A stretch of DNA of 64,000 nt, taken from positions 5,215,501-5,279,500 of the forward strand of contig NZ_CP107921.1 in NCBI RefSeq assembly GCF_036014215.1. Direction: 5' to 3'. The translations under genes and the position numbers were made by a program. This document shows positions 7,449-57,231 of this stretch, piece after piece. The notes beneath the pieces were generated by a model. That model made no database searches, was not told the DNA's origin, and saw only the letters and a list, made by a program, of their open reading frames with translations. Every line of letters starts with the position of its first letter. Positions within the stretch are counted from its first letter, which is position 1. This stretch comes from Streptomyces sp. NBC_00440. GTDB lineage: Bacteria; Actinomycetota; Actinomycetes; Streptomycetales; Streptomycetaceae.

Positions 7449-7634
7449 ACGAGGCTCCCGACACGCTGCCAGGAGAAGGCCAGTCGTGGGGGAGCCAGCC
7501 TGCTCACGCCCGCATCGCGGGGTAGCCGGCCGGTCGGCCTTGGCCACACGGATCGGCAGCTCACGCCCGTGCCGCCGAGCCTGTGGTGCCGTGTGCCCCC
7601 ACGGCGGGCATCTATCGGCAGAGAGGTTGCGGTC

Positions 7635-8438
7635 TTAGGCTGTTTGGCGTCGGTAGGTTCGGTCGCGCCTGCGTGCGAGCCACGAATCGGGCCGTCGGTG
7701 CGAGCGCTCGACGTACAGCGGTGTCGCTAAAATCAGTCTCTCTGACCACTCTCGTTGGGTACTGAGAAGCACGCGCGCATGTCCCCTGAGGCGTCCCTCT
7801 TGTTCAGCGGGATGCTCGCGAGCGATGTGTCGATAGACCCACTGGCAGACCTGCTCGGGGTCGTTGAGTCCTGACCGGTGGATTTCGGGGCTGCCAAGGA
7901 CCGGGGGCAGATCGTCATTCCCGGACCTGTCTGAGTCCTCGATCTGACGGATGAGCTTGTAAAGCCATGAGGTGCCAGAGCCCATCCAGCCAGCCCCCAG
8001 CGGGTCGCCAGGGCTGACAGGCTTGCAACCGCCGACGACCAGGTGGCGCGCATCACCGCAAAGGAGCAACTTCACAGGCTTGTCCTGGCCTACTGTCTCC
8101 CCGGGCATTACTCCCGCAAAGAGAGCGATGTCCTGGACGGCAGGTACGCGGCCATCTCGCCCACCCGTTGAGTAGCCCATGGGTAGATCAAAACTGATCC
8201 AGCCCGGGTGTTCGACCACGGGATCCGTGAAGGGTTTGGCAAGTTCCTTCACAGACCGGAGGGCTTGATTGAAGAGCTCTGGCAGGCCCGCATCTTCGGG
8301 TTTCCCTGGAGCCTTGGAAAAGGTGATCTTGGGAGTCAGGGAAAGTTCACCAGATGTAGATCGTGTTGAAGTGGGTAATCCAACTCGACAGAGCTCGTCG
8401 CGGATCTTGCGCTCCGATATGTATACGAGGTCTGGCAT
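7635..8438 (-). CDS. Hypothetical protein, possibly SAVMC3_10250/DUF7019-like
   Basis: A 267-residue protein without signal peptide or membrane segment. The opening MPDLVYISERKIRDEL and the central LLLCGDARHLVVGG plus GSGTSWLYKLIRQIE segments recall a Streptomyces hypothetical family (SAVMC3_10250 type), from memory only. The C-terminus is Arg-rich. The upstream region and gene are visibly less G+C-rich than the core genes, with more A/T at third positions, which suggests acquisition. Function unknown. Confidence 0.6.
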   Translation of the reverse strand: MPDLVYISERKIRDELCRVGLPTSTRSTSGELSLTPKITFSKAPGKPEDAGLPELFNQALRSVKELAKPFTDPVVEHPGWISFDLPMGYSTGGRDGRVPAVQDIALFAGVMPGETVGQDKPVKLLLCGDARHLVVGGCKPVSPGDPLGAGWMGSGTSWLYKLIRQIEDSDRSGNDDLPPVLGSPEIHRSGLNDPEQVCQWVYRHIAREHPAEQEGRLRGHARVLLSTQREWSERLILATPLYVERSHRRPDSWLARRRDRTYRRQTA

Positions 8439-41625: not shown

Positions 41626-41699
41626 GACTCTTTGCTCCCTTGCCCTGTTCCCTCTGGCCCTGTTCCCGGCGCTGCCCGGCGCTGTGTCGGAAAGCTGTG

Positions 41700-43004
41700 T
41701 CAGAAATACGTACGGATGTAGTCCGTGACCGTGCCGTCCGCCTCGACGAGCGGGATCAGCTGCCACTTGTCGAAGGAGGTGCAGGGGTGCGAGAGCCCGA
41801 GCCCCACCCAGTCACCGACTTCGAGGCGCGCGTCGGCCGTGGTGCGCAGCCAGCCGTGCTGGTCGGAGAGGCCGGTGAGCGTGATGCCGGTGGCTGGGCG
41901 TACCTCGCCGGTGCGCGCGTCGCGGACGACCTGCGCCTGCGGCAGGTCGAGGTCGTACGCCGCGTCCCGCTTGCCCGCGTTGACGAACGCCTGCTCCCCG
42001 GTGGGCTGCGAGACGACCTGCGCCCAGAGCCGGAAGGCCGGCTGGAGCGCGCCCTCGGACGGCACCCGGTTGAACGGCGTCAGATGCTTGTAGTGGCCGT
42101 CGTCGTGCGAGACATAGGCGCCGGAGCGCAGCAGCTTCAGCACGGGGGCCGAGAGCGCGGGGATCTCGGCGAAGACGTCGGCCACCGCGTCGAACCAGGC
42201 GCTGCCGCCCGCGCTCAGCACGATCTCGTCCAGACCCGCGAAGTGGCCGTCGCGGTCGAGTCCGGCGGCCAGCGCGACCAGTTGGCGCAGCCAGGCGTGC
42301 ACCCGCTCGCTGTCGGCTTCGGGCACCTCGCCCTCGTAACCGGCGACGCCGACCAGGCGCAGCGTGTCCGTCGCGGCCACCGCTCCGGCGACGGCAGCGC
42401 CATCGGCCGGGGTCCGTACGCCGGTCCGGGCGCCGTCGCCCGCGCCCAGCTCCACGACCACGTCGAGCGGGCGGGCGGAGCCGCGCAGCGCCTCGTCCAT
42501 CAGCTCGACCCCGCGTACGGAGTCGACGTAGCAGATGAAGCGGAAGTCCGGGTCGGCGGCCAGTTCGGCGGCGATCCACTGGAGGGCGGGGGCGTCCACG
42601 ATCTCGTTGGCGACGAAGATCCGCTGCACGCCGAAGGCGCGGGCGACGCGGACCTGGTGCGGGACGGCGAGGGTGATGCCCCAGGCGCCGTGCTCGGTCT
42701 GCCGGTCGAAGAGCTGCGGGGCCATCGACGTCTTGCCGTGCGGGGCGAAGGCGAGGCCGTGCTGTGTGGAGTACGTCTCCATGAGGGCGAGGTTGTGCTC
42801 GACCGACTCGGCCGAGAGCGCGAGTACGGGGGTGGTGAACCCGCCGGTGAACAGGTTGCGGCGTTCCGCCGCGAGGGCGGCCAGGGTCAGCCCGTCGGCG
42901 CCGGGCGGCAGCCCCTTGAAGCGGTGGTCGGCCACCTCCGCGCCGATGGTCTCGCGTGCGTCCGCCGCACTCGCCGCGCCCGCCGTACCTGCCGCGCCCG
43001 CCAT
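41700..43004 (-). CDS. PLP-dependent D-amino acid deaminase (alanine-racemase fold; DSD1/D-glucosaminate deaminase-like)
   Basis: A 434-residue fold-type III PLP enzyme. The PLP lysine is Lys91 in FAPHGKTSMAPQLF. The C-terminal HxC (LSHPC) looks like the zinc site of D-serine dehydratases. Characterised relatives deaminate D-serine, D-threonine or D-glucosaminate. GGGAGG lies five bases before ATG 43004. Head-to-head with the sugar kinase, and followed by the D-aminoacylase, it fits conversion of D-glucosaminate to 2-keto-3-deoxygluconate plus ammonia; this is inference from context. Confidence 0.87.
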   Translation of the reverse strand: MAGAAGTAGAASAADARETIGAEVADHRFKGLPPGADGLTLAALAAERRNLFTGGFTTPVLALSAESVEHNLALMETYSTQHGLAFAPHGKTSMAPQLFDRQTEHGAWGITLAVPHQVRVARAFGVQRIFVANEIVDAPALQWIAAELAADPDFRFICYVDSVRGVELMDEALRGSARPLDVVVELGAGDGARTGVRTPADGAAVAGAVAATDTLRLVGVAGYEGEVPEADSERVHAWLRQLVALAAGLDRDGHFAGLDEIVLSAGGSAWFDAVADVFAEIPALSAPVLKLLRSGAYVSHDDGHYKHLTPFNRVPSEGALQPAFRLWAQVVSQPTGEQAFVNAGKRDAAYDLDLPQAQVVRDARTGEVRPATGITLTGLSDQHGWLRTTADARLEVGDWVGLGLSHPCTSFDKWQLIPLVEADGTVTDYIRTYF

Positions 43005-43023
43005 GGAACCTCCCAGAGAGTGT

Positions 43024-43077
43024 GCGTTGCAACATGCGCAACGCTCATTGCGTATATCGCTCACCGCTGTCTAACAT
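43024..43077. promoter_or_regulatory. IclR-type palindromic operator and kinase-operon promoter
   Basis: GCGTTGC-AACATGC-GCAACGC (43024-43044) is a perfect 7-bp inverted repeat between the divergent deaminase and kinase genes. Just right of it, TTGCGT (43048) and TAACAT (43072), 18 bp apart, make a plausible promoter reading towards the kinase. The IclR gene in the same operon is the natural regulator of both directions. Confidence 0.6.
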
Positions 43078-43138
43078 CCGAGCCATCGCCGGGTCAACGG
43101 AGTCCCCGGCCACCCACCACCGAGGAGCGAGAGCGATC

Positions 43139-44206
43139 GTGACCGCCCAGTACACCCCAGGGCCCCCAGTGGACGTCGTCTGTCTCGGCGAGTCCATGGT
43201 CACCTTCCTGCCTTCCCGCCCCGGCCGACTGGCCGACGTGCCCTCCTTCGACCGGGGCATCGGCGGCGCCGAGTCCAATGTGGCCTGCGCGCTGGCCGCC
43301 GCCGGGCACTCCGCGCGGTGGATCAGCCGGGTCGGCGCCGACGGCTTCGGCGACCACCTGACCGAGGCCGTCGGGGCGTACGGGGTCGACACCTCGGCCG
43401 TCCAGCGCGACCCGAACCGGCCCACCGGTGTCTACTTCCGTACCGCCGACGACCGTGACGCCGACCACCACGAGGTCATCTACTACCGGGCCGGGTCCGC
43501 CGCGAGCGCGATGGCGCCCGGCGTGATGGACCGCGCCGCGCTGTGGTCGGGGCAGGTGCTCCACCTCTCCGGGATCACGGCCGCGCTCTCGCCCGGCTGC
43601 CTGGCCCTGATGCGCGAACTGACCGCGCCGGCGCCCGGCCGCCCGCTGGTCTCCTTCGACGTGAACTTCCGGCCGGGGCTGTGGCGCGACGACGCAGACG
43701 AGACCGGCCCCCGGGTGCTGCTGGAGCTGGCGCGCGGGGCGGACGTGGTGTTCGTCGGCGAGGACGAGGCGGCGGCGGCCTGGGACGTACGGGGCGCTGC
43801 CGCGATCCGGGCGGCGCTGCCGGAGCCCGCCGTGCTGGTCGTGAAGCGGGGGGCGGCGGGGGCGACGGTCTTCGCCGGCGGTCCGCAGGGCGACACCGTC
43901 ACCACCGTCCCCGCGCTGCGCGTCGACGTCGTGGCCCCCGTGGGCGCGGGCGATGCCTTCGCCGCCGGTTTCCTCTCCGGCACGCTGCGCGGCCTCCCGG
44001 TCCGCGACCGCGTCCGGCACGGCCATCTGATGGCCGCCGCCGCCCTCACCGTCCACGGCGACCTGGCCGACCCGCCGTCCCGTTGTGTGGCCGACCGCCT
44101 CGCGGCTCTCGACGACACCGCCTGGGGCACACTTCGCATCGGCCCCGGCTGGACCGAGACCGTGTCCGACGTGACCGGCGCCGAAGAGGAGGCATGTACG
44201 CCATGA
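43139..44206 (+). CDS. PfkB-family sugar kinase, 2-keto-3-deoxygluconate kinase-like
   Basis: A 355-residue ribokinase-fold kinase. It shows the PfkB N-terminal region CLGESMVTFLPS with IGGAESNVACALAAAG, and the C-terminal signature PVGAGDAFAAGFL with its catalytic Asp. VSFDVNFRPGLW matches KDG and fructo-kinase relatives. The GTG at 43139 is preceded by GAGGAG. Its stop overlaps the IclR start (ATGA). The predicted step is KDG to KDPG in the glucosaminate pathway. Confidence 0.9.
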   Translation: MTAQYTPGPPVDVVCLGESMVTFLPSRPGRLADVPSFDRGIGGAESNVACALAAAGHSARWISRVGADGFGDHLTEAVGAYGVDTSAVQRDPNRPTGVYFRTADDRDADHHEVIYYRAGSAASAMAPGVMDRAALWSGQVLHLSGITAALSPGCLALMRELTAPAPGRPLVSFDVNFRPGLWRDDADETGPRVLLELARGADVVFVGEDEAAAAWDVRGAAAIRAALPEPAVLVVKRGAAGATVFAGGPQGDTVTTVPALRVDVVAPVGAGDAFAAGFLSGTLRGLPVRDRVRHGHLMAAAALTVHGDLADPPSRCVADRLAALDDTAWGTLRIGPGWTETVSDVTGAEEEACTP

Positions 44207-44997
44207 GCCAGACCGTGGACCGCGCGCTGTCCATCCTGCCGCTGCTCGCCCGGGGGCCGGCCGACCTCGGCCAGGTCTCGGAGAGCCTCGGCGTCCACAA
44301 GTCGACCGCGCTGCGGCTGCTGCGCACCCTCCACGAGCACGGGCTCGTCTACCGCCAGCAGGACCAGCGCTACCGGCTGGGCACCCGCCTCTTCGCGCTC
44401 GCCCAGGAGGCCGTCGAGAACCTCGACGTACGGGAGATCGCGCACCCCCATCTGGCCAGGCTCAACGAGGAGTGCGGGCACACCGTGCACCTCGCGGTGT
44501 ACGAGGAGAACGAGGTCCTCTACATCGACAAGGTCGAGAGCCGCTACCCGGTCCGGATGTACTCGCGGATCGGCAGGCCCGTCGCGATCACCGTGGCGGC
44601 CGTCGCCAAACTGCTGCTCGCCGACCTCCCCGAGCCGGAGCGGCGCAGCGTCGCCGAACGGCTCGACTACCCCACATACACGGCCCGTTCGACTCCGAAC
44701 GCCGGCGCCTTCCTCAAGGAGCTGGCCACGGTGCGCGAACAGGGCTGGGCCACCGACCTCGGTGGCCACGAGGAGTCCATCAACTGCGTCGGAGCCCCCA
44801 TCCGGGGCGTGGACGGCCGGGTTGTCGCCGCCATGTCGATGTCGGCGCCCAATGTGGTCGTGACCGCAGAGGAACTCCTCACCCTGCTCCCGCTGGTGCG
44901 CCGCACGGCCGACGCCATCAGCGGCGAGTACGCGGGCACCGCACCGCAGCCGAAGACCGTTTCCCCGCACCACCCCCCGAAGGAAGCAAGGGCATGA
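44203..44997 (+). CDS. IclR family transcriptional regulator
   Basis: A 264-residue regulator. The N-terminal winged helix (about 1-65) includes VSESLGVHKSTALRLLRTLH, and the C-terminal IclR effector domain contains HLAVYEENEVLYIDKVES and SINCVGAPIRGVDG. ATG 44203 is ten bases after AGGAGG; the ATG at 44194 is too close. It is coupled by four-base overlaps to the kinase before and RidA after. It probably represses both divergent units through the palindrome at 43024. Confidence 0.94.
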   Translation: MSQTVDRALSILPLLARGPADLGQVSESLGVHKSTALRLLRTLHEHGLVYRQQDQRYRLGTRLFALAQEAVENLDVREIAHPHLARLNEECGHTVHLAVYEENEVLYIDKVESRYPVRMYSRIGRPVAITVAAVAKLLLADLPEPERRSVAERLDYPTYTARSTPNAGAFLKELATVREQGWATDLGGHEESINCVGAPIRGVDGRVVAAMSMSAPNVVVTAEELLTLLPLVRRTADAISGEYAGTAPQPKTVSPHHPPKEARA

Positions 44998-45404
44998 CCG
45001 AGAAGACCGCTCTCACCCCCGCCACCCACACCACGCCGCCCGCGAAGTTCTCGCACGGCGTCCGCAAGGGCAACATCCTCCAGGTCGCCGGCCAGGTCGG
45101 CTTCCTGCCGGCCGTCGAGGGCCAGGCGCCCACCCCGGCGGGCCCGACCCTGCGCGAGCAGACCCTCCAGACCTTCGCCAACGTCAAGGCGATCCTGGAG
45201 GAGGGTGGCGCGACCTGGGACGACGTGATGATGATGCGCGTCTACCTCACGGACGTCGCGCACTTCGCCGAGCTGAACGAGATCTACAACGCGTACTTCG
45301 AGGAGCAGGGACTCACCCAGCCCGCCTCGGCCCGTACGACCGTCTACGTCGGCCTGCCGCCCGGCCTGCTCATCGAGATCGACGCGCTCGCCGTACTCGG
45401 CTGA
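44994..45404 (+). CDS. RidA family enamine/imine deaminase
   Basis: A 136-residue protein of the RidA/YjgF family that hydrolyses reactive enamine and imine intermediates released by PLP dehydratases. Family features: SHGVRKGNILQVAGQVG, EQTLQTFANVKAILEEGG, and the late ASARTTVYVGLPPGLLIEID with the conserved Arg. It is coupled to iclR by ATGA. In this operon it would clear the 2-aminoacrylate-like intermediate made by the divergent deaminase. Confidence 0.93.
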   Translation: MTEKTALTPATHTTPPAKFSHGVRKGNILQVAGQVGFLPAVEGQAPTPAGPTLREQTLQTFANVKAILEEGGATWDDVMMMRVYLTDVAHFAELNEIYNAYFEEQGLTQPASARTTVYVGLPPGLLIEIDALAVLG

Positions 45405-45422
45405 CACCGCCTCACCCCGACC

Positions 45423-45461
45423 CGGCACGGCGCCCCTTCCCCCTTCCGGGGCGCCGTGCCG
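45423..45461. terminator. Hairpin between ridA and the permease
   Basis: A perfect 14-bp stem (CGGCACGGCGCCCC) around an 11-base loop. It lies between genes on the same strand, so it may attenuate read-through into the permease. Confidence 0.75.
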
Positions 45462-45573
45462 CGCACCACCCTGCTCCGCCGCACCCCTGCATCTCCCGTG
45501 CACTGAAGTCTCCCCTTGTGCACCGGCAGCCCCCCCGCCCCTGAAGTCCCCGAGGAAACAACGGAGTTCCCCC

Positions 45574-47043
45574 ATGTACTTCGCCGCTGACACCCCCGCA
45601 GCGCCACCCCACACCGGCGGACTGCTCGCCGTCGTCGGCGGCACCACCGGTCTGCTGACCGTCGCCGTCCTGGGCATAGCACTGCTCCTCTTCCTGATCA
45701 TCAAGGTCAGGCTGCAGCCGTTCGTCGCGCTGCTCGGCGTCTCCATAGCCGTCGGCCTCGGTGCCGGACTCTCCGTCACCGAACTCTTCGGCACGGTCCA
45801 GAAGTCGTCGTCGGTCTCGATGATCGAGTCGGGCATGGGCGGCATCCTCGGGCACATCGCGATCATCATCGGCCTCGGTACGATGCTCGGCTCGATCCTT
45901 GAGGTCTCGGGCGGCGCCGAGGTGCTGAGCTCCCGGCTGCTGAACCTCTTCGGTGAGAAGCGCGCCCCGCTCGCGATGGGTCTCACCGGCCTCATCTTCG
46001 GTATCCCGATCTTCTTCGACGTCGGCATCTTCGTCCTCGCGCCGATCGTCTACGCGGCCGCCAAGCGGTCCGGCAAGTCCATCGTCCTGTACGCGATGCC
46101 GCTGCTCGCGGGCCTGTCGATGACCCACGCGTTCCTGCCGCCGCACCCCGGCCCGGTCGCGGCCGCCGCGCTCTTCCACGTCTCGCTCGGCTGGGTCATC
46201 CTGATCGGCGCCGCCTGCGGTATCCCCGCCGTGCTGGCCGCCTGGGTGTACGCGGCGTGGATCGGCAAGCGCCTCTTCGTCCCGGTGCCGCAGGACATGG
46301 TCGAGGCCGCCGAGGAGGCCAAGGCCGCGGTCGTCGCCGAGCAGCAGGCCCTGGGGGTCGAGCCGCAGGAGAAGCCGGTCCCGCTGGGCACGGTCCTCGC
46401 GATCATCGGTACCCCGCTGATCCTGATCCTGCTGGCGACGTTCTCCTCGATCGCGCTGGACCCCTCGACGCTCCGCTCGGTCCTGGAGTTCTTCGGCCAC
46501 CCCTTCGTCGCCCTGACGATCGCGCTCTTCCTCTCGTACTACCTGCTGGGCATCCGCCGCGGCTGGTCGCGCAAGTCCCTGGAGGCGGTCTCGACCGCCT
46601 CGCTCAAGCCGGTCGGCAACATCCTGCTGGTGGTCGGCGCCGGCGGCATCTTCGGCGCGGTCCTCAGCGGCAGCGGCATCGCGGGCGCCCTGTCCAAGAC
46701 CTTCAACGACGTGGGTCTGCCGGTCATCGTGCTGGCCTACCTGATCTCGCTGGTGCTGCGGGTGGCCCAGGGCAGCGCGACGGTGGCGATCGTGACCACG
46801 GCGGGCATCGTCCTGCCCCTGGTCGACGGCCAGCACCTCTCGCAGCCCCACCTCGCCCTGATCATCATGGCCATCTCGGCCGGCTCGATCTTCGCCTCGC
46901 ACGTCAACGACGGCGGGTTCTGGATGGTCGCCAAGTACTTCGGCATATCGGAACGCGACACGCTGAAGTCCTGGACGGTGCTGGAATCGGTCCTGTCGGT
47001 GGCGGGCTTCGTGGTCGCCGCGCTGCTCAGCCTGGTGATCTAG
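45574..47043 (+). CDS. GntP family gluconate/sugar-acid permease
   Basis: A 489-residue permease with about twelve to fourteen transmembrane helices. GntP hallmarks include GMGGILGHIAIIIGLGTMLG, FGIPIFFDVGIFVLAPIVY, THAFLPPHPGPVAAA and RVAQGSATVAIVTTAGI. The family imports gluconate and related sugar acids with protons. As the last gene of the kinase/IclR/RidA unit it should bring in the amino-sugar acid. The N-terminus starts at ATG 45574. Confidence 0.95.
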   Translation: MYFAADTPAAPPHTGGLLAVVGGTTGLLTVAVLGIALLLFLIIKVRLQPFVALLGVSIAVGLGAGLSVTELFGTVQKSSSVSMIESGMGGILGHIAIIIGLGTMLGSILEVSGGAEVLSSRLLNLFGEKRAPLAMGLTGLIFGIPIFFDVGIFVLAPIVYAAAKRSGKSIVLYAMPLLAGLSMTHAFLPPHPGPVAAAALFHVSLGWVILIGAACGIPAVLAAWVYAAWIGKRLFVPVPQDMVEAAEEAKAAVVAEQQALGVEPQEKPVPLGTVLAIIGTPLILILLATFSSIALDPSTLRSVLEFFGHPFVALTIALFLSYYLLGIRRGWSRKSLEAVSTASLKPVGNILLVVGAGGIFGAVLSGSGIAGALSKTFNDVGLPVIVLAYLISLVLRVAQGSATVAIVTTAGIVLPLVDGQHLSQPHLALIIMAISAGSIFASHVNDGGFWMVAKYFGISERDTLKSWTVLESVLSVAGFVVAALLSLVI

Positions 47044-48034: not shown

Positions 48035-50890
48035 CTATGCCATCTGCCGCCGTACCAGCTCGTGCAGGCGGCCGTCCGTGTCCGCGAGGAGCTGGGCCGG
48101 GGGGCCCTGCTGGACGATGTGGCCGTCCGCCATGACCACCACCCGGTCCGCGTCCATGACCGTCGACAGGCGGTGTGCGATGACGATCCGGGTCGCGTTC
48201 AGTGCGCGCGTGCTGTCGATGACCGTGCGCTGGGTCTCGTTGTCGAGTGCGCTCGTGGCCTCGTCGAAGAACAGGATGCGGGGGCGACGGATCAGCGCCT
48301 GCGCGATCATCAGGCGCTGGCGCTGGCCGCCCGAGATCGCGCCGCCGCCGGCGATCATCGTGTGCAGGCCCATCGGCATCTGTTTGATGTCCTCGGCCAG
48401 ACCCGCCATCGCCGCCGCCTCCCACGCCTCCTCCTGCGTGAACACCTCAGCACCGCAGATGCAGTCCAGGATCGAACCGGTCAGCGGCTGGGCGTTCTGC
48501 AGCACCACCCCGCACTGCCTGCGCACCGCCGCCTGGTCGAGTGCCGTGAGGTCCTGGCCGTCGTACAGGACGCCCCCCGAGACCGGCCGGTCGAAGCCGA
48601 TGAGCAGCCGCAGCAGCGTCGACTTGCCGCAGCCGCTCGGGCCGACGACCGCCACGAACTCGCCAGGACGGACGGACAGCGACACGTCGTCCAGGACGAG
48701 CGGGCCGTCGTCCGTGTACCGGAAGGACACCCCGCGCGCCTCGATCTCCCCCGTCAGGGCGCCCGGCTGGGTGCTGGCGGCGCGTACCTCGGGCGCCTCG
48801 TCGAGCACCGGCTTGATCTGCTCGAACATCGGAAGGACCGCCGCCGCCGAGAGCGCCGCGCCGGTGAGCTGCGTGACCGCGGTGAGCAGCATCGTCACCG
48901 CGGTGCTGAACGTCAGGAAGTCGCCCGCCGACATGCTGCCCCGCGCCGGGCCCGCGAGCAGCATGAACATCACCAGTGAGCACAGCGGCAGATAGACGGA
49001 GTTGAGGACCGTGGTGAGGTTCTTGACGCGTCCCGCGCGCCGCTGGAGTTCCCGGCTGCGCGCGAACTCCCCGGCCCACGCGGCGTACGCGAAGCTCTCC
49101 GCGCCCGCGACACGCAGCTTCGGCAGTCCGCGCAGGGTCTGGAACGCCTGGTTGTTGAGCTTGTTGCCGAGCACCACGAGGCGCCGCTGCCAGCGCAGCT
49201 CCCACAGCCCGAGGGCGAGGAACACGGCCGCGATCACCGCCAGCATCCCGAGAGCGGCCAGGGCGAGGGGCACGCTGTAGCAGAGCAGCAGGACGAGGTT
49301 GAGCGTGCCGACCGTGCCCGCCTGCACCACCACGGGGCCCACCCCCGACAGGAGCCGGCGGATCGAGCTGATGCCCATCGCCGCACTGGCCAGTTCGCCG
49401 GTGGAGCGCGAGGCGAAGAAGCGCGTCGGCAGCCGCAGCAGCCGGTCCCACACGGCCGGTTGGAGCGCGCTCTCGATCCGGCCCTCCATCCGCAGGATCG
49501 TCAGGTTCTGGAGCAGCATGAACGCCGCCGACACGATGCTCGTCACCATCACCGCGACGGACACCTGGACGATGAGGTCCGACTCGGCGTTCGGCACGTA
49601 CTCGCCCAGGACCCGCCCGGTCGCCACCGGCACCAGGGCGCCGATCGCGACCGTCACCAGGCCCGCGCCGAGCAGGTTCCGCAGATCGCCCCTGGTGCCG
49701 CGCGCACTGAACCGCAGCAGCCGCAGCGGGCTCAGCGGCCGGTCGGGTAGCGGCCGGTACAGCATCACGGCCCGCGGTTCGAACTCGTCCGCGTTGTCCT
49801 CGTCGATCCGGGTGGGCCGTCCGCTGGAGGGGTGCACCGCCTCGTACCCGCCGCGCCGCCACAGGAGCGCGACCGGGGCGCCGGACGCGGCCCGGTGTCC
49901 CACCAGGGGGCCGGTGTTCTCGCGCCACCAGCGGCCGTCGAGCCGGACCGCGCGGCTGCGGATCCGCGAGGCGACCGCGACCTGCTCGACCGGGTCGATC
50001 CGGTCGCTGACCGCGCCGCTGCGCGCGGGCTCGGTGAGCGTGATCCCGGCCGCGTCGGCGACCAGCTTGCACGCGGCGTACGTCGCGTCGTCACCGTATC
50101 CGGAGGACGTACGCCGTGAACTTCCCCTGCTCTGGCTGCCGATGGACGCGAGCAGTGTCCGGTCGGCGTTCTCGCGGACGGTCTCGCCCGCCTTGATACC
50201 GGCCGCCGTACGGGTCTCGTGCGCGCTCTCCAGGCGCTCGATCCACCGGTCGAGGGCCGAAAGCAGCCGGAACTGCTGGTTGACCATGCGCTGCCACATC
50301 GACCCGTCGACCAGCAGGTCGCCGGCCGCGTCCGCGCTGTACGACGCCCCGTACTGCACGCTGCCCGGCATGACCGGCAGCCACAGGATGTCGTCGTCGC
50401 CCACGGAGTCGTCGCCGGCGGTCCTGCCGTCGAGCGGGGCCTCGAACAGCACCCGCTGACTGCGGCCCACGCCCAGCGCGAACGCGTGCTCCAGGAGGCT
50501 CAGCGCCGCGTCCTGGGTGTCGTACTGGCTGAGGTACTGCTGGTCGTACGCCCACGAGCCGTCGCCGTGGTCGGGGCCCTGCAGTTCCCGCAGCGCGATC
50601 CGGCGCAGCGCGCAGCCCTGCAACGGCCGCCCCACCAGCGTGTGTTGCGGCCCCTCGACCGGACCGAGGAGCAGGGTCCCCGCCTCCAGCCGGCCCAGGA
50701 AGTGCCAGTGCCCCTGCGCCGCGGCGTCCACCGCGAACAGGTCGAGCGCGCCCCCGACGACGAGCCACAGGACCTGCGGCCCCTCCAGCGGCAGGCTGCG
50801 CAGGCCGGTGCAGTCGACCGGCACGCCCAGCGCGCCGAACGCGGCGGTCACCTGGTCGCCCGCGGTGTGCTCCTGGTGCGGGTACGTCAC
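48035..50890 (-). CDS. NHLP-type bacteriocin export ABC transporter, permease/ATPase without peptidase
   Basis: A 951-residue half-transporter of the NHLP/NHLM export family. A long non-membrane N-terminal region (about 1-380) replaces the C39 peptidase; it is followed by a six-helix ABC exporter domain (about 400-690) and an ATPase with VVGPSGCGKST, ISGGQRQRLMIAQAL and RILFFDEATSALD. It starts at GTG 50890, one base after the stop of the C39 transporter. The pair probably forms a heteromeric exporter for the peptide encoded upstream. Confidence 0.93.
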   Translation of the reverse strand: MTYPHQEHTAGDQVTAAFGALGVPVDCTGLRSLPLEGPQVLWLVVGGALDLFAVDAAAQGHWHFLGRLEAGTLLLGPVEGPQHTLVGRPLQGCALRRIALRELQGPDHGDGSWAYDQQYLSQYDTQDAALSLLEHAFALGVGRSQRVLFEAPLDGRTAGDDSVGDDDILWLPVMPGSVQYGASYSADAAGDLLVDGSMWQRMVNQQFRLLSALDRWIERLESAHETRTAAGIKAGETVRENADRTLLASIGSQSRGSSRRTSSGYGDDATYAACKLVADAAGITLTEPARSGAVSDRIDPVEQVAVASRIRSRAVRLDGRWWRENTGPLVGHRAASGAPVALLWRRGGYEAVHPSSGRPTRIDEDNADEFEPRAVMLYRPLPDRPLSPLRLLRFSARGTRGDLRNLLGAGLVTVAIGALVPVATGRVLGEYVPNAESDLIVQVSVAVMVTSIVSAAFMLLQNLTILRMEGRIESALQPAVWDRLLRLPTRFFASRSTGELASAAMGISSIRRLLSGVGPVVVQAGTVGTLNLVLLLCYSVPLALAALGMLAVIAAVFLALGLWELRWQRRLVVLGNKLNNQAFQTLRGLPKLRVAGAESFAYAAWAGEFARSRELQRRAGRVKNLTTVLNSVYLPLCSLVMFMLLAGPARGSMSAGDFLTFSTAVTMLLTAVTQLTGAALSAAAVLPMFEQIKPVLDEAPEVRAASTQPGALTGEIEARGVSFRYTDDGPLVLDDVSLSVRPGEFVAVVGPSGCGKSTLLRLLIGFDRPVSGGVLYDGQDLTALDQAAVRRQCGVVLQNAQPLTGSILDCICGAEVFTQEEAWEAAAMAGLAEDIKQMPMGLHTMIAGGGAISGGQRQRLMIAQALIRRPRILFFDEATSALDNETQRTVIDSTRALNATRIVIAHRLSTVMDADRVVVMADGHIVQQGPPAQLLADTDGRLHELVRRQMA

Positions 50891-50891
50891 G

Positions 50892-53150
50892 TCAGTGCTC
50901 CCTGACCAGGTCGGCGTACGGCCCCCCGGCGGCGACCAGTTCCTCGTGGCGGCCGCGCTCCACGACCTGGCCGTGGTCGAGCACCACGATCTCGTCGCTG
51001 TCGCGGACCGTGCTGAGGCGGTGCGCGATCACCACGCACGCGCAGCCGCGGCGCCGCAGATTGTCGATGATGATCTGCTCGGTCTCGGCGTCCAGGGCGC
51101 TGGTCACCTCGTCGAGCACGAGGACGCTCGGCCGCCGGACCAGGGCACGCGCGATTTCGAGCCGCTGGCGCTGCCCGCCGGAGAAGTTCCGTCCGTCCTG
51201 CTCGACACGGCCCTGGATGGAGCCGGGCCTGCGCGCCACCACGTCGTACAGCGCCGCGTCCTTGAGCGCGTCGACGACCGCCTCGTCGGGGATCGACGGA
51301 TCCCACAGCGCGACGTTGTCACGGACCGTGCCCTCGAAGAGGAACACGTCCTGGTCGACGAAGGACACGGACGCGGTCAGCGCGCCGCGCGGGATGTCGT
51401 CCAGACGCTGCCCGTCGATCCGGATCGTGCCCTCCCAGGGGGTGTACAGACCGGAGATCAGCCGCGACACCGTCGACTTGCCGCTGCCCGAACCGCCCAC
51501 GAGGGCGACCTGCTGCCCCGGTCCGACGGTCAGCGAGAAACCCGTCAGGAGCGGCTTGTCGAGCGGGCTGTAGCCGAACGTGATGTCGTCCAGCGTGACG
51601 TGCCCCTTCAGACGGCGCGTGCTCCCGGCTGTTCCGGACGGGGCATCGTCGGAACGGGCGTACAGGGAGTCCACCGGAAAGTTCTCGACGTCCTTCAGCC
51701 GCGTCACGTCGGCGGCGAAGTCCTGGATGCGGCCCGCGACGCCGTTGAGACGGGTGACCGGCGCGGTGAAGCGGACCACGAGCGCCTGGAACGCCACCAG
51801 GAGCCCCACCGACAGATGCCCCTCGACCGCGCGCAGACCGCCGATCCACAGGATCAGCGCGCTGTTCAGCGTCGCCAGGGTCGGCGCCACGATGCCCAGC
51901 CACGCGCTCGGCACCCCGAGGCGCTGCTGCTCCTCAAGCGTGGTGGCGTGCTGCCCGGCCCAGCGCCGGAAGTAGCCGTTCTCGCCGCCCGTCGCCTTCA
52001 TCGTCTCGATCAGCTGAAGGCCCGTGTACGAGGTGTTGGTGAGCCGGGCGGTGTCCGCGCGCAGCTTCTGCGTACGCGTGGCGCGCAGCCGGATCACGAT
52101 CCGCATCGCGACGACGTTCCCGAGCGCGATGCCCACCCCGACGAGCGTCAGCTGCGGGTCGTACGTCCACAGCAGCGCCGCGTACAGCAGCACCACCACA
52201 CCGTCGACTCCGGCGGCGGCCAGATCGCGCGCGAGGGTCTCGGCGACCGCGTCGTTCGACTGGAGACGCTGCACCAGGTCGGCCGGGCTGCGCTGCGCGA
52301 AGAACGTCACGGGAAGCCGCAGCAGATGCCCCAGGAAGCGGGCGCTGCTGAGCGTCGAAGCGATGATGCGCCCGTGCAGCAGGTTCGCCTGCTGGAGCCA
52401 GGTGAGGACGCCGGTGAGCGCCACCATCGTGGCCATCGAGGCGAACAGCGCGCCCAGGAGCGATGTCTGATGGCCGAGCAGGAACATGTCGATGTACGTG
52501 CGGCTGAGCGCGGGCAGCGCCGCGCCGGTCGCGACCAGCAGCAGGCTGGCGAGGAGCGCGGCGAGCATCGTGCCCGTGGTGCCGCGCAGGCGCGCGGGCA
52601 GCGCCCTCAGGACGCCCGGCCTGCGGCCGCCCTCGCGGAATCCTTCGCCCGGTTCGAGTACGAGGACGACGCCGGTGAAACTGGTGTCGAAGTCCTCGGC
52701 GGGCACGAACCTGCGGCCCTTGTCCGGGTCGTTGATGTGTACGCCGCGCCGGCCGAAGCGCCGGCCCATGCCGTCGTAGACGACGTAGTGGTTGAACTCC
52801 CAGAAGAGGATCGCGGGCGCCTTGACCTCGGCGAGGGCGGCCGGCTCCATCTGCATGCCCCTGGCGGTCAGGCCGTAACTCCGCGCCGCTTTCAGGAGAC
52901 TGCTGGCCCGCGAGCCGTCACGCGAGACGCCGCAGGCGATGCGGAGCTCTTCGAGGGGGACATGGCGGCCGTGGTGGGCGAGGATCATGGCCAGGGACGC
53001 GGCGCCGCACTCGACGGCCTCCATCTGGAGGACGGTGGGCGTCCGGACCGTCCGGTGGCGGCGGCGCTGCGGCGCGGGCGCGGGGCGTGCCCTGCGGCGG
53101 CCGTGGCCGGCCGGCGGCAGCTGCTGCTGGGCGGCGGGGGAGGGGCTCAC
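50892..53150 (-). CDS. C39 peptidase-containing bacteriocin ABC exporter (NHLP family)
   Basis: A 752-residue processing exporter. The C39 cysteine protease at residues 35-165 has Cys48 in QMEAVECGAASLAMIL, His121 in NHYVVYDG and Asp141 in INDPDKG: the full triad that cuts double-glycine leaders. It is followed by an ABC membrane domain and an ATPase (GGSGSGKST, FSGGQRQRLEIARAL, VLVLDEVTSALD). The GTG at 53150 overlaps the fusion-protein stop (GTGA). The 54060 peptide with its GG leader is the obvious cargo. Confidence 0.95.
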   Translation of the reverse strand: MSPSPAAQQQLPPAGHGRRRARPAPAPQRRRHRTVRTPTVLQMEAVECGAASLAMILAHHGRHVPLEELRIACGVSRDGSRASSLLKAARSYGLTARGMQMEPAALAEVKAPAILFWEFNHYVVYDGMGRRFGRRGVHINDPDKGRRFVPAEDFDTSFTGVVLVLEPGEGFREGGRRPGVLRALPARLRGTTGTMLAALLASLLLVATGAALPALSRTYIDMFLLGHQTSLLGALFASMATMVALTGVLTWLQQANLLHGRIIASTLSSARFLGHLLRLPVTFFAQRSPADLVQRLQSNDAVAETLARDLAAAGVDGVVVLLYAALLWTYDPQLTLVGVGIALGNVVAMRIVIRLRATRTQKLRADTARLTNTSYTGLQLIETMKATGGENGYFRRWAGQHATTLEEQQRLGVPSAWLGIVAPTLATLNSALILWIGGLRAVEGHLSVGLLVAFQALVVRFTAPVTRLNGVAGRIQDFAADVTRLKDVENFPVDSLYARSDDAPSGTAGSTRRLKGHVTLDDITFGYSPLDKPLLTGFSLTVGPGQQVALVGGSGSGKSTVSRLISGLYTPWEGTIRIDGQRLDDIPRGALTASVSFVDQDVFLFEGTVRDNVALWDPSIPDEAVVDALKDAALYDVVARRPGSIQGRVEQDGRNFSGGQRQRLEIARALVRRPSVLVLDEVTSALDAETEQIIIDNLRRRGCACVVIAHRLSTVRDSDEIVVLDHGQVVERGRHEELVAAGGPYADLVREH

Positions 53151-53953
53151 GGAAGCAGCCAATCGATCGGGTGCTGCCCGGCGAGGTGCACGGCGCCCGA
53201 GGCCGGGGTCATGGAGTCGAGCGCGTACGGCGGTCCGCCGGCGGACGACCACGCGTAACCCGACTTCGTGGCGGAGGACTTGACCAGCTTCACGAGGACC
53301 GCGACCGTCGGGCCGCCCTTCGTGAACTGCCCGGCCAGCTGTTTGTCACCGAGGAAGCCGGCTATCTGCTGCTGGGTCTGCGCGCCGTGCCCCACGGCCT
53401 GTACGCGGCCCCGCAGCATCCCGTACTGCTGTTCCGGCGCCGACTGGACGGTGAGATCGACGTCAGCGCCGACCGGCACGGTCCCCGCGCTGTCCGCGGG
53501 GACGTAGACCATGGCGAGGAGGGGATCCCCGGCGCTGCGGGTCTTCTCCACGGTGGCGACATCGGCGCCGGTGGTCACGACCGTGCCGATCCCGGCCGAC
53601 AGTGTGGTGACCCGGCCCGCGTCGATGGCGCGGACGAGCCGGTCGCCCTGCTCCGTACGGACCTTGAGGACGGGCGCGCCGGCGGCCAGGCGCTGTCCTT
53701 CCTTGGCGAGCACGCCCGTGACCTGACCGGTGACGGGGCTCTGGAGGACGTAACTGCCCTGCGCGTGCGTCAGGATGCCGGGTGCGCGGAGGGTCGACGA
53801 CACCGACCCGGTGACCGCCCACACGGACGCGGCGGCCATCACGACGACCGTCACGACCAGGGCGAGCAGTCCCTGCGGTCTGGCGAGCCGCACGGGAAGG
53901 TCGAGTTCCTCGGGCGACTGCAGCTTGGACAGGGCCTGTTGGCGGAACTGCAC
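53147..53953 (-). CDS. HlyD-like membrane fusion protein of the bacteriocin export system
   Basis: A 268-residue accessory protein of the NHLP secretion type. A short cytosolic N-terminus (MQFRQQALSKLQSPEELDLPV) precedes one transmembrane helix (GLLALVVTVVVMAAASVWAV) and a biotinyl-lipoyl-like beta domain (SPVTGQVTGVLAKEGQRLAAG) outside. The GTG at 53953 has GGGAAG seven bases upstream. It is coupled to the C39 exporter and lies after a hairpin that separates it from the precursor gene. Confidence 0.9.
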   Translation of the reverse strand: MQFRQQALSKLQSPEELDLPVRLARPQGLLALVVTVVVMAAASVWAVTGSVSSTLRAPGILTHAQGSYVLQSPVTGQVTGVLAKEGQRLAAGAPVLKVRTEQGDRLVRAIDAGRVTTLSAGIGTVVTTGADVATVEKTRSAGDPLLAMVYVPADSAGTVPVGADVDLTVQSAPEQQYGMLRGRVQAVGHGAQTQQQIAGFLGDKQLAGQFTKGGPTVAVLVKLVKSSATKSGYAWSSAGGPPYALDSMTPASGAVHLAGQHPIDWLLP

Positions 53954-54009
53954 GACATTCTTCCCTTACGTTGCGGAGCCGGTGGACCGACAGGCCCTGA
54001 CGGCGCCGT

Positions 54010-54045
54010 CAGGCCCCGGAACCCTGGGGAAGGTTCCGGGGCCTG
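54010..54045 (-). terminator. Hairpin between precursor peptide and transporter genes
   Basis: A 14-bp stem (CAGGCCCCGGAACC with its complement) with an eight-base loop lies 15 bp after the peptide stop. It overlaps an 18-bp palindrome (53996-54013), so the two structures exclude each other. Such a partial terminator would give more peptide mRNA than transporter mRNA, as in many bacteriocin operons. Confidence 0.75.
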
Positions 54046-54059
54046 TGTGGAGCCGTGGC

Positions 54060-54287
54060 TCAGGCGCCGGCGATGAGGCCGGTGACCGTGCCGGTGACGG
54101 CGCCGGTGTTGACACCGGTCAGACCCGCGACCGTGCCGGCGACGCCGCCGACGAGGCCCGAGACCGGGGCGATGGAGTCGGCCGTGCCGGTCACGTTGCT
54201 GACGAGGCCACCGACGAGACCGCCGGAGACGTTGTCGAGGTCGGCGTCGGAGATCTCAAGGGTCTGAACCTGGGGGACGGAGTTCAT
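54060..54287 (-). CDS. Double-glycine-leader precursor peptide (bacteriocin-like)
   Basis: A 75-residue secreted-peptide precursor. The leader (residues 1-23) ends in the C39 recognition pattern ISDADLDNVSGG, with hydrophobic residues at -12, -7 and -4, acidic at -8 and Gly-Gly at -2/-1. The 52-residue core begins LVGGLVSNVTG and is Gly/Val/Thr/Ala-rich with many GxxxG-type spacings and no Cys. That rules out lanthionine or disulfide bridges but suits membrane-inserting class II bacteriocins or assembly into fibres. AAAGG lies 11 bases before the ATG. It is the first gene of the export operon. Confidence 0.88.
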   Translation of the reverse strand: MNSVPQVQTLEISDADLDNVSGGLVGGLVSNVTGTADSIAPVSGLVGGVAGTVAGLTGVNTGAVTGTVTGLIAGA

Positions 54288-54691
54288 GATGTGAGCGGCC
54301 TTTCTCAGGGGTAATTCGAGAAAACGGGAATCAGTGGTGCAACTCCCGCGGTGCGGAGGATCAAAGCACGATGGCCCCTCGCACATCCACTCGGAGCGTC
54401 CCCGCTCAGGGGCTGTGTGGTCACAGAATTGCGGCGGAGTGCAGGTCTGTTCACCGACCCGGGACAGCCCCTTCACGGGATCGATAGGTTCGCATTACCC
54501 GGGGCGCTGTGACATTCACCAAAGTGGACACTCCCGCATTAATGACCAACGTCAATTCTGCGGGTTGTGCGTGTTCTCGGGACGCAGTGACCGGACTGCG
54601 CAGTCGGTGTGCAGGTTCACTGGAGATGCTCATGGGGCGGCCGGGGCCGGTGGGGTTCCCGGCTGCTCGGTCCCGCTTCACAGCGCTCCGA
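54288..54691 (-). promoter_or_regulatory. 404-bp regulatory gap before the precursor gene
   Basis: No further gene is supported. The gap contains an A/T-richer stretch around 54500-54560, unusual here, with a TTGACG on the minus strand near 54555. The perfect 12-bp palindrome GACTGCGCAGTC (54594-54605) is a candidate binding site for the adjacent LuxR-type regulator. It should hold the precursor promoter and an untranslated leader. Confidence 0.45.
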
Positions 54692-54714
54692 TCACAGCCA
54701 TCCGGAGCGCTGTG
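54679..54714 (-). terminator. Hairpin straddling the stop of the regulator gene
   Basis: A 12-bp perfect stem CACAGCGCTCCG/CGGAGCGCTGTG with a 12-base loop overlaps the last codons of the regulator. It would insulate the peptide operon from the regulator transcript. Confidence 0.65.
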
Positions 54715-55684
54715 CCTGCAAGGCCATCTGGAAGCGGTTCGCGGCGCCCAGCTGGGCCATCAGGATCTGCAGGCGGCGGAAGAGCGTGCGGCGGCTGATT
54801 CCGAGCTCGCGGGCGATGACGTCGTCGCTCGTGCCGCCCGCGAGGAGCCACAGCAGCCGGCGGTCGGCGGGCGGCAGGCCGCCCGGGCGGGCGGTGCGGC
54901 CGTGGAACGGCAGGGCGTTCTGCCAGGACTGCTCGAACAGTGCCATGAGCGCGGAGAGCAGGCCGCACGGCTGCACGACCAGCATCGTGTTGTGCACGTC
55001 GGCCTCTTTGATCGACAGCGACACGAGCCCGTACGCCTCGTCGATGATCACGAGCTTGACCGGCACCGACGGCAGCACCCTCGCCTGCTCACCGGCCTTG
55101 ATGCACGGTTCGACGGCCTCCTCCAGATGGCCCGGGTGCTCCAGCGACGCCCGCGAGTACACGACACGCTGTGTCACACCGCGGGCCAGCGTCGCCAGCG
55201 CGTCGTCCGTGGCGCCGGACAGCGGGAAGTACGGCGGTGACTCGAACTGCCGGATCTGTTCGCGGGCGCTCGCCCACGCCTGGCGGATCCTGGGTCCGAC
55301 GGCCTCGCCGGTCACGACCTCGACCAGGTGGTCGTTGTACGCGGCGAGCCGCTGACGCCGGAACGACTCGAACGCGCCCCCGACGCTGATGCGCGACTCC
55401 TCGACCTCGGCCGCCCGGTGTCTGGCGAGGATCTCCAGACCGGCGGTCGGCGGAACCGGCGCCACCACGTCCCCGCCCGACCCGGCGGCACTGGCCAGAC
55501 CGGCGTCGACCAGTGCGCCGTAAGCCGTGGTCAGTTCCGCACCGTCCAGACCGGCCGCGGCGCCGACAGCACTCAGCGGGGCCGGGGCCAGTTCGAGCAG
55601 CGCCAGATAGACCCGGACCGCCGAGTGATCGATTCCCAGGAGCCGCAGGGCCTCACCGAGCTTCGCGTTCGTCATATGCCCCAT
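54692..55684 (-). CDS. TrmB/LuxR-like two-domain regulator
   Basis: A 330-residue protein. Its N-terminal winged helix resembles TrmB (EALRLLGIDHSAVRVYLALL, AAAGLDGAELTTAYGALVDAG). A middle effector domain has a phospholipase-D-like fold feel (QRVVYSRASLEHPGHLEE). The LuxR helix-turn-helix is at the end (GGTSDDVIARELGISRRTLF, RRLQILMAQLGAANRFQ). ATG 55684 has GGGAG nine bases upstream. Its position just ahead of the peptide operon on the same strand makes it the likely cluster regulator. The signal is unknown. Confidence 0.85.
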   Translation of the reverse strand: MGHMTNAKLGEALRLLGIDHSAVRVYLALLELAPAPLSAVGAAAGLDGAELTTAYGALVDAGLASAAGSGGDVVAPVPPTAGLEILARHRAAEVEESRISVGGAFESFRRQRLAAYNDHLVEVVTGEAVGPRIRQAWASAREQIRQFESPPYFPLSGATDDALATLARGVTQRVVYSRASLEHPGHLEEAVEPCIKAGEQARVLPSVPVKLVIIDEAYGLVSLSIKEADVHNTMLVVQPCGLLSALMALFEQSWQNALPFHGRTARPGGLPPADRRLLWLLAGGTSDDVIARELGISRRTLFRRLQILMAQLGAANRFQMALQAQRSGWL

Positions 55685-55818
55685 TATCGGTGGCTCCCGC
55701 CGGGGTGTCTGTCCGATCTGTGCCACTGGCACTCTTCCGCCCCGAACGCGCGCGGTGCGAGGTAGCGTCCGGGAGCCGCCGAGTGGCTGCGGGATCCATC
55801 CAGAGGAAGGTGTACGAC

Positions 55819-57231
55819 GTGGCGAAAGGCCGGAGGAACGGTCTCTACTCAGGGATCTCCGATGAGCTGTCCGCTCTGATGCGGACGGGCTGGGCGGACA
55901 CCGAGCGGCACGACCTGACGCTCGCCGAGCAGTCCCCGCACGCGGCCCGCCGCCGAGCGGCGCTCTCCGCGCGCTTTCCGGGCGAACGCCTCGTGATTCC
56001 CTCCGGGAACCTCAAGGTCCGTTCGAACGACGACACCTACCCCTTCCGGCCGTACTCGGGCTATGTGCACATGACCGGAGACCAGGTCCGGGACGGCGCG
56101 CTCGTCCTCGAACCCCGTGCGGACGGCGGCCACGACGCCTACTGCTACCAGCTGCCGCGCGACAGCAGGGACAACGACGAGTTCTGGACCGGCCCCACGG
56201 CCGAGCTGTGGATGGGCCGCCGCCGCTCCCTCGCCGAGTCGGAGCTCGTGCTCGGCCTGCCCTGCCGTGACATCCGCACGGCCGCCGACGACCTGGCCGC
56301 CGCCCCCGCCGCGCCGACCCGGATCGTCCGCGGTGTCGACCCGGCCCTGACGGCCGCCGTCACCACCGATGAGGTGCGCGACGCCGAACTCGACGAGGCG
56401 CTCAGCGATCTCCGGCTCGTCAAGGACGAGTGGGAGATCACGGAGCTCCGCAAGGCCGTGGACTCCACGGTGCGCGGATTCACCGATGTGATCGGTGAAC
56501 TCTCCACGGCGATCGCGTCGTCCGAGCGGTGGATCGAGGGCACGTTCTTCCGCCGCGCACGCCTTGAGGGCAACGCCGTCGGCTACGGCTCGATCTGCGC
56601 AGCGGGCGAGCACGCCACGATCATGCACTGGACGGACAACGACGGTCCGGTGCGCCCCGGCGACCTGCTCCTGCTCGACGCGGGCGTCGAGACGAACACC
56701 CTCTACACGGCCGACGTCACGCGCACCCTCCCGATCAACGGGACCTTCACGCCCGTGCAGCGCAAGGTCTACGACGCGGTGTACGAGGCCCAGGAAGCGG
56801 GCATGGCCGCCGTCAAGCCGGGCGCCGCGTACCGCGACTTCCACGAGGCGTCGCAGCGCCACCTGGCGACCCGGCTGGTCGAGTGGGGCTTCATCGAAGG
56901 CCCGGCCGACCGCGCGTACGAACTCGGCCTCCAGCGCCGCTTCACCATGGCCGGTACCGGTCACATGCTCGGTCTGGACGTCCACGACTGCGCGCAGGCC
57001 AGGCAGGAGGAGTACGTCGACGGCGTAATGGAGCCGGGCATGGTGCTCACCGTCGAGCCCGGCCTGTACTTCCAGCCGGACGACCTCACCGTGCCCGAGG
57101 AGTGGCGCGGCATCGGCGTCCGCATCGAGGACGACCTGCTCGTCACCGACGACGGCAACGAGAACCTGTCGGACGGTCTGCCCCGGTCGGCGGACGAGGT
57201 CGAGGCGTGGATGGCCCGTTTCGCCGGCTGA
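55819..57231 (+). CDS. Aminopeptidase P family (M24) metallopeptidase
   Basis: A 470-residue Xaa-Pro aminopeptidase-type enzyme. The N-terminal AMP_N domain (about 35-170) precedes the pita-bread M24 domain with metal ligands in LLLDAGVETNTLYTADVTRT, GTGHMLGLDVHD, LTVEPGLYF and GVRIEDDLLVT. The GTG at 55819 has GGAAGG eight bases before it. It is cytosolic, with no signal peptide, and divergent from the TrmB/LuxR gene. Involvement in trimming the exported peptide is speculative since maturation occurs at the membrane; a housekeeping role is equally possible. Confidence 0.93.
   Translation: MAKGRRNGLYSGISDELSALMRTGWADTERHDLTLAEQSPHAARRRAALSARFPGERLVIPSGNLKVRSNDDTYPFRPYSGYVHMTGDQVRDGALVLEPRADGGHDAYCYQLPRDSRDNDEFWTGPTAELWMGRRRSLAESELVLGLPCRDIRTAADDLAAAPAAPTRIVRGVDPALTAAVTTDEVRDAELDEALSDLRLVKDEWEITELRKAVDSTVRGFTDVIGELSTAIASSERWIEGTFFRRARLEGNAVGYGSICAAGEHATIMHWTDNDGPVRPGDLLLLDAGVETNTLYTADVTRTLPINGTFTPVQRKVYDAVYEAQEAGMAAVKPGAAYRDFHEASQRHLATRLVEWGFIEGPADRAYELGLQRRFTMAGTGHMLGLDVHDCAQARQEEYVDGVMEPGMVLTVEPGLYFQPDDLTVPEEWRGIGVRIEDDLLVTDDGNENLSDGLPRSADEVEAWMARFAG

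Follow-up and report, generated by a model that had tools for sequence, protein, structure and literature searches.

The subject of this analysis is a four-gene peptide-export cluster of Streptomyces sp. NBC_00440, located within a 64,000-nucleotide stretch of contig NZ_CP107921.1 (positions 5,215,501 to 5,279,500; the window below refers to this whole stretch). Among the described systems closest to it are the Streptomyces coelicolor genes SCO0753-SCO0756. Published passages on this set report a Cys-free, 57% hydrophobic peptide encoded with an exporter, with the same organization in many Streptomyces, and the authors consider export probable (PMC6629963). According to the same passages, the SCO0753 set is overexpressed more than 60-fold in a dispersed strain carrying an activated allele of a kinase, is almost silent in the null mutant, and sco5283 encodes an OmpR-type regulator (PMC6629963). 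In passages of further papers, SCO0753 and two other secondary-metabolism genes are raised in an aor1 mutant (PMC5733086), and SCO0756 is raised in a ppm1 (envelope-glycosylation) mutant (PMC5882110) and slightly lowered in a SCO2730 (copper) mutant (PMC6414726). Another close system is the NHLM/NHLP export machinery associated with Nif11-type leaders, whose exporters are described, in the passages concerned, as occurring with modified peptides (Haft et al. 2010, PMC2887384).

What is new here is that the leader of the cluster peptide and, in the main family, its promoter elements are common to peptide genes scattered over other chromosomal sites, which co-occur with one exporter. Our open-access literature search recognized no paper on either these solo leader-tagged genes or the promoter elements.

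Organization of the window cluster

The original prediction, made from the letters of the window alone, had proposed a cluster for the secretion of an unmodified glycine-zipper peptide. The genes, in order of transcription on the minus strand, are as follows (ABC, ATP-binding cassette):

54287-54060, minus strand: 75-amino-acid precursor, composed of a 23-amino-acid leader (MNSVPQVQTLEISDADLDNVSGG) and a 52-amino-acid core without Cys
53953-53147, minus strand: HlyD-like fusion protein of the NHLM trio (TIGR03794, 134.8 bits, cut-off 156.2; HlyD_3)
53150-50892, minus strand: C39 peptidase-permease-ATPase, ABC1 (TIGR03796, Peptidase_C39, ABC_membrane, ABC_tran)
50890-48035, minus strand: second ABC permease-ATPase, ABC2, without a peptidase domain (TIGR03797)

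The precursor, with its leader ending in DLDNVSGG, was recovered exactly as proposed. Both transporters belong to NHLM export families by score, ABC1 reaching 1012.6 bits against TIGR03796 (cut-off 853.3) and ABC2 reaching 902.8 bits against TIGR03797 (cut-off 709.4), in agreement with the proposed C39 exporter and second NHLP-type protein. The proposed fusion protein is indeed HlyD-like, with TIGR03794 as its best family, but its score lies below the cut-off of that family. The Peptidase_C39 alignment in ABC1 spans positions 2-131 of 133, and the Pfam scan gave no match to this domain in ABC2. ABC1, the sole C39 match of its genome, is predicted to cleave and export the precursor. As for the Cys-His-Asp triad said to be intact, the three residues are visible in the ABC1 translation within what we take to be the C39 motif, but this motif is not covered by the alignment obtained, which was made to a different protein. 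The genes had also been described as largely joined by GTGA overlaps; such an overlap exists at the HlyD/ABC1 junction only (53150-53147), where the GTG start of ABC1 overlaps the HlyD stop, while 1 nucleotide (nt) separates ABC1 from ABC2 and 106 nt separate the precursor from the HlyD gene.

Conservation of the cluster and a second precursor type

The window cluster is one unexceptional representative of a set that is widespread in Streptomyces, and the notion of a class uncommon in actinomycetes had to be abandoned. Precursor homologues numbered 295 of 397 candidates; among the 120 listed, those with a named source are from Streptomyces and are mostly labelled 'type A2 lantipeptide'. A precursor match is found in 248 of 392 sampled Streptomyces genomes, and a leader-peptide match in 284 of them when a wider profile, based on the solo genes, is used. 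We compared 80 named loci (77 from Streptomyces, 2 from Actinacidiphila, 1 from Kitasatospora): the HlyD gene adjoins the precursor in all of them, and the complete four-gene order is present in 78. Both loci short of four genes (L024 and L081) end at a contig end, and in two loci (L027 and L056) the ABC genes were matched only in part. Each of the 80 loci has one query-like precursor, although an unrelated small partner peptide could still be present. At the level of the class, TIGR03797 occurs in 34 of 296 genomes, 24 of them in the genus Streptomyces and 10 in other genera.

The leader and the exporter (called by TIGR03797 at E 1e-200, which gives 283 positive genomes out of the 392) are found together almost without exception. 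ABC2 is present in 245 of the 248 precursor-positive genomes; with the solo-based leader profile, 280 genomes have both, 4 the leader peptide only, 3 the exporter only and 105 neither, counts that are not corrected for kinship. Two of the four leader-only genomes contain a C39 match and two contain none. The three exporter-only genomes comprise one with its match near a contig end (G120), one with a YcaO-type system (G188) and G320.

With the narrower precursor query, 38 genomes have the exporter without a precursor match. The original prediction had named the absence of the precursor gene from otherwise conserved clusters as an observation that would speak against it. Re-searching 30 of these genomes yielded 30 upstream stretches from 29 of them (two stretches from one genome, none from another), and 28 of the stretches contain another Cys-free double-glycine (GG)-leader peptide before HlyD, typically starting with MRNDIETREIADAELDAVSGG. 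That a second type of Cys-free precursor occupies this position is new here. Its 27 distinct cores include none with Cys and 18 with K, R or H, and have net charges from -4 to 0. The other two stretches (L139 and L140) hold a different NHLM system with YcaO and nitroreductase/ThcOx-like genes directly upstream. Its recovery indicates that the genus does contain a modified-type NHLM system and that such a system is visible to this approach. The precursor of this YcaO-type system was not found in L139 or L140.

Promoter elements upstream of the precursor

Comparison of the 80 loci revealed a conserved upstream region with two elements, and a stem-loop downstream of the precursor gene:

54438-54477, minus strand: element A, GTGAAG-N16-GTG followed by CTGCAC, in 78 of 80 loci
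54350-54392, minus strand: element B, a GATTGG-like hexamer (GAGTGG in the window) followed by CGTGCTTTGATCC
54010-54045, minus strand: stem-loop of 16 bp in the precursor-HlyD gap, lacking a T run; may be a partial terminator or a processing site

The TTTGATCC or TTGTATCC part of element B was found in 79 of the 80 loci, and elements A and B lie 110-112 nt apart in all 77 loci having both. Weight matrices of the two elements, built from cluster loci only, were applied to the 28 second-type clusters, where the best A-B spacing is 111 nt in 18, 100 in 3, 122 in 2 and some other value in 5; element A stays at background score in several of them, including both at 122 and one of the three at 100. 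An exact-string regulon search found CGTGCTTTGATCC without mismatch at a single place in its own genome. A riboswitch or other structured RNA in the upstream block was considered and rejected, as the block matched nothing in Rfam at gathering score (sub-threshold matches being at chance level) and yielded no convincing consensus structure (-0.81 kcal/mol).

The stem between precursor and HlyD measures at least 10 bp in 75 of the 80 loci (base-shuffle mean about 6.7); across 13 distinct hairpins, stem positions 3 and 10 show compensatory changes. It may act as a partial stop that would leave more precursor message than exporter message.

Solo leader-tagged genes

In 19 of 20 genomes re-searched (19 of the 20 having at least two precursor matches), a second match lies outside the cluster; in G016 its leader part is missing. 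The readable solo peptides have the leader of the cluster precursor and a different core. No NHLM exporter was found in 15 solo stretches of 16 kb, which gave only weak ABC matches of 27-33% identity (L184 and L188), and no neighbour besides the solo open reading frame (ORF) recurs in more than 3 of these 15 or in more than 4 of 30 shorter stretches. The exporter is present in 124 of the 125 genomes with at least two leader-profile matches (profile matches taken in bulk), and the 20 solo-bearing genomes that were checked contain exactly one C39 match in 13 cases and two in 7.

Many solo genes also carry the promoter elements. In 14 of the 15 solo stretches scored, the score of element A is above that of every one of the 911 background windows in 6 and the score of element B in 9, with a spacing of 110 nt in 6. 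For the 30 best solo matches of the genus, 28 could be parsed, and the A-B spacing is 110 nt in 22, 111 in 3, 112 in 1 and different in 2; element A exceeds all 405 background windows in 26, as does element B in 26, whereas in the background control the best A-B pair is 100-122 nt apart in 29 of the 405 windows. Seven of the 28 were already in the 15-stretch set and most belong to one solo family (with cores that start with NPH or similar), so these promoter cases are not independent. Solo families outside the NPH-like group are mostly devoid of element A at the usual distance.

Cluster and solo genes were compared in the eight genomes that have both. The leader DNA is 86% identical (45% when shuffled) and the stretch from element B to the start codon 65% (shuffled 41%), with 46% (40%) between the elements; identities of 71% for element A and 57% for element B refer to matrix-located sites, which favours likeness. 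The core residues are 24% identical (shuffled 18%). Cys occurs in 2 of the 28 parsed solo cores and K or R in 21, hence the cluster type is not merely repeated in the solo peptides. The ratio of nonsynonymous to synonymous substitution rates (dN/dS) is 1.39 for solo cores (231 pairs, 22 genes) versus 0.44 for the leader, and 0.72 in the 25 closest pairs, values possibly inflated by codon bias. Such fast evolution of the solo core could reflect either antagonism or relaxed selection, and it leaves a bacteriocin reading open for the solo peptides.

Some solo genes stand apart. Two encode peptides with single-Cys cores, unlike the cluster peptides (L178:8025-8222 and L189:7930-8154). Another family has a nearly identical Ala/Gly-rich core in two genomes (L186:7992-8216 and L188:7839-8063), a high-scoring element B and no high-scoring element A at the usual distance. 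In L187, at about 7480-8290, two different leader-tagged genes lie close together on one strand, away from an NHLM exporter. The genome of the window itself contains one leader match only and no solo gene.

Properties of the cluster peptide

Above cut-off the precursor has no match in Pfam or NCBIfam, and it has none to a nitrile hydratase- or Nif11-related leader, the sole NCBIfam match with E up to 1 being TigB (E 0.85); a PDB profile search with the peptide gave a best E of 0.17. None of the 80 cluster precursors (64 distinct cores) contains Cys. About 78% of the residues in the 64 cores are V, G, T, L or A and about 21% are Ser or Thr, while F, H, K, M, R and W each account for less than 0.05%; net charge ranges from -1 to -3. 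The proposed glycine-zipper spacing was borne out, with 7 GxxxG motifs in the window core versus 2.8 in shuffles (a count reached by 0.5% of 2000 shuffles) and 271 versus 96 over the 64 distinct, though related, cores. Residues 41-43 (PVS) are invariant in an alignment of 31 sequences. The computed average mass of the unmodified 52-residue window core is 4551.1.

Between close relatives the cluster core is under purifying selection, with a dN/dS of 0.28 in 98 close pairs (leader 0.26, HlyD 0.22). Fast core evolution as a sign of antagonism is absent in close pairs, though the ratio grows in distant ones (see below).

Proposed function and alternative explanations

We consider it fairly probable that one NHLM exporter serves a scattered regulon, made up of the cluster peptide and unlinked solo genes that keep the leader, the 5' region and the two-part promoter while their cores have diverged. 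As to what is exported and where it acts, we lean, if only slightly, towards a regulated NHLM-type exporter whose unmodified, anionic and hydrophobic peptides act at the envelope of the producer itself. The precursor gene would be switched on via elements A and B, whose spacing is nearly constant, and the regulator might be of the OmpR response-regulator type, for example the SCO5283 orthologue. The C39 domain of ABC1 would then cut after GG, and the ABC1/ABC2/HlyD machine would export a 52-residue anionic, very hydrophobic glycine-zipper peptide, whose role most likely lies at the producer's cell envelope or on its hyphal surface rather than in killing. In relatives of the window strain, the same exporter probably also serves the solo peptides with the same leader that are encoded elsewhere, and new unmodified peptides could join this fixed export and regulation by swapping or evolving the core only.

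Several observations weigh against this interpretation. The HlyD-like protein scores below its family cut-off. AlphaFold2 gave no confident fold for the peptide (mean predicted local distance difference test score 56.7), so that the glycine zipper is a sequence pattern only. With increasing distance the core dN/dS climbs to 0.59 over 1212 pairs and to 0.84 over 1693 pairs, the corresponding leader values being 0.26 and 0.35; the synonymous rate of the precursor is lowered in distant pairs, probably by codon bias. The suggested link between SCO5283 and the elements is conjecture drawn from the expression data of a different species. That the two elements are helically phased was considered and set aside as no more than a possibility, as spacings other than 110-112 nt rest mostly on weak element A scores. 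The product of the SCO0753-type cluster goes unmentioned in the published passages on the set. Finally, the genome of the window carries LANC-like and YcaO genes elsewhere, and the co-inheritance analysis given below covered these two enzyme families only.

That the cluster makes a class II bacteriocin-like antimicrobial, in which the glycine-zipper peptide, alone or with solo partners, permeabilizes competitors, appears unlikely, although the GG leader, the C39 exporter, the GxxxG enrichment and the higher dN/dS of solo cores than of their leaders all fit such a role. Two of the 120 listed solo-profile relatives are named class IIb bacteriocin at NCBI, and a 2026 paper calls a 'type A2 lantipeptide' gene antimicrobial; in the passage concerned this rests on a BlastP name, and the gene is tied to the present family by that name only (PMC13047742). 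The cluster cores differ from cationic pore-forming bacteriocins in being anionic and nearly devoid of K, R, H, F and W. The purifying selection on the cluster core in close relatives and the presence of the cluster in most sampled Streptomyces speak in the same direction, and no widely recurrent extra gene able to give immunity was seen in the 80 loci, with the reservation that the gene caller misses small genes. A ribosomally synthesized and post-translationally modified peptide (RiPP) modified by an enzyme from another place in the genome is less probable still. Its appeal lies in the Ser and Thr content of the cores, in the modified peptides known with NHLM exporters, in the YcaO-type NHLM stretches of two other Streptomyces and in the LANC-like and YcaO genes of the strain itself. 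The cores are nevertheless free of Cys, and, as originally claimed, no modification enzyme lies nearby: no RiPP enzyme, lanthionine synthetase included, was found among the part of the window ORFs that was scanned (7 cluster-region proteins and 10 further ORFs between 38 and 63 kb, 2 of them without a Pfam family), and none recurs widely beside the clusters or the solo genes. An always co-inherited enzyme, the other observation named beforehand as damaging, did not emerge either for the two families covered, since among 40 of the 248 precursor-positive genomes LANC-like genes are absent in 10, YcaO in 11 and both in 4. The NCBI name 'type A2 lantipeptide' is accompanied neither by a core Cys nor by a lanthionine synthetase among the scanned neighbours or an always co-inherited LANC-like gene.

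Least likely, and in our view very much so, is a role as an extracellular signal in some regulatory loop. The conserved promoter region with two spaced elements, the small size of the exported peptide and the regulator gene adjoining the cluster in the window would suit it, but that regulator recurs in almost none of the loci compared (see below), and the core seems long and hydrophobic for a pheromone.

If the shared-exporter interpretation is true, it would describe a plug-in system, with one exporter and one promoter type for peptide genes dispersed along the chromosome. Database entries name the peptide a lantipeptide despite its lack of Cys; together, leader, promoter elements and solo genes now point to candidate substrates, a candidate regulon and a single exporter gene, which makes the role of the cluster testable.

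Neighbouring genes

Two genes adjoin the cluster on its upstream side:

54692-55684, minus strand: TrmB/LuxR-like regulator, a neighbour outside the conserved module (weak TrmB and helix-turn-helix matches, below cut-off)
55513-57231, plus strand: aminopeptidase P homologue

The regulator had been counted as part of the cluster. The ORF is present (TrmB match with E 5e-4, below cut-off), but it accompanies the cluster, together with the aminopeptidase gene, in only 2 of 80 loci, of which L002 shows complete identity to the window in the seven proteins compared; the regulator was therefore rejected as a cluster member.

The commonest extra neighbour is a divergent secreted S1 (alpha-lytic type) protease, found in 46 of the 80 loci (for example L077:7615-9570) and followed by a Ppx/GppA gene in 33; the gene caller misses genes, so neighbour counts are lower bounds. 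Neither gene is among those scanned beside the window cluster. The other scanned window genes appear to be metabolic or otherwise unconnected with the cluster: amidohydrolase, D-serine dehydratase-like, PfkB kinase, IclR regulator, GntP permease, enolase-superfamily enzyme, 2-hydroxyacid dehydrogenase, trypsin-like protein, aminopeptidase P and xylose isomerase-like. The first five of these, at 40021-47043, perhaps form an amino/sugar-acid catabolic set.

Comparison with known systems

SapB and SapT are lanthipeptides and belong to the Streptomyces peptides tied to the hyphal surface or morphology; unlike them, the window peptide has no Cys and no lanthipeptide enzyme among its scanned neighbours. 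Class IIb two-peptide bacteriocins combine a GG leader, a C39 exporter and GxxxG motifs and need no modification enzyme. The window cluster resembles them in all these respects (no enzyme lying among its scanned neighbours), but its core is anionic, no second peptide of the same family is adjacent and no immunity gene was seen with a gene caller that misses small genes.

With the NHLM/NHLP and Nif11-leader system, as described in the relevant passages, the window cluster shares the export families TIGR03796 and TIGR03797 and, with a best match below the cut-off, TIGR03794 (PMC2887384). It departs from that description by its short GG leader, which is not nitrile hydratase- or Nif11-like, by the lack of a maturase among the scanned neighbours and by Streptomyces promoter elements common to scattered peptide genes.

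The vaguely similar S. coelicolor cluster mentioned in the original prediction is SCO0753-SCO0756, which parallels the window cluster closely. The promoter elements, the second precursor type and the solo genes are unmentioned in the passages on that set, and SCO0753 is given there as 77 amino acids versus 75 in the window, the two being likened by description and not by the SCO0753 sequence (PMC6629963). A 71-amino-acid relative with the source name S. violaceoruber (P0057) is 66% identical to the window peptide. Both clusters have the same gene order, a hydrophobic Cys-free peptide, an HlyD-like protein and two ABC proteins (PMC6629963).

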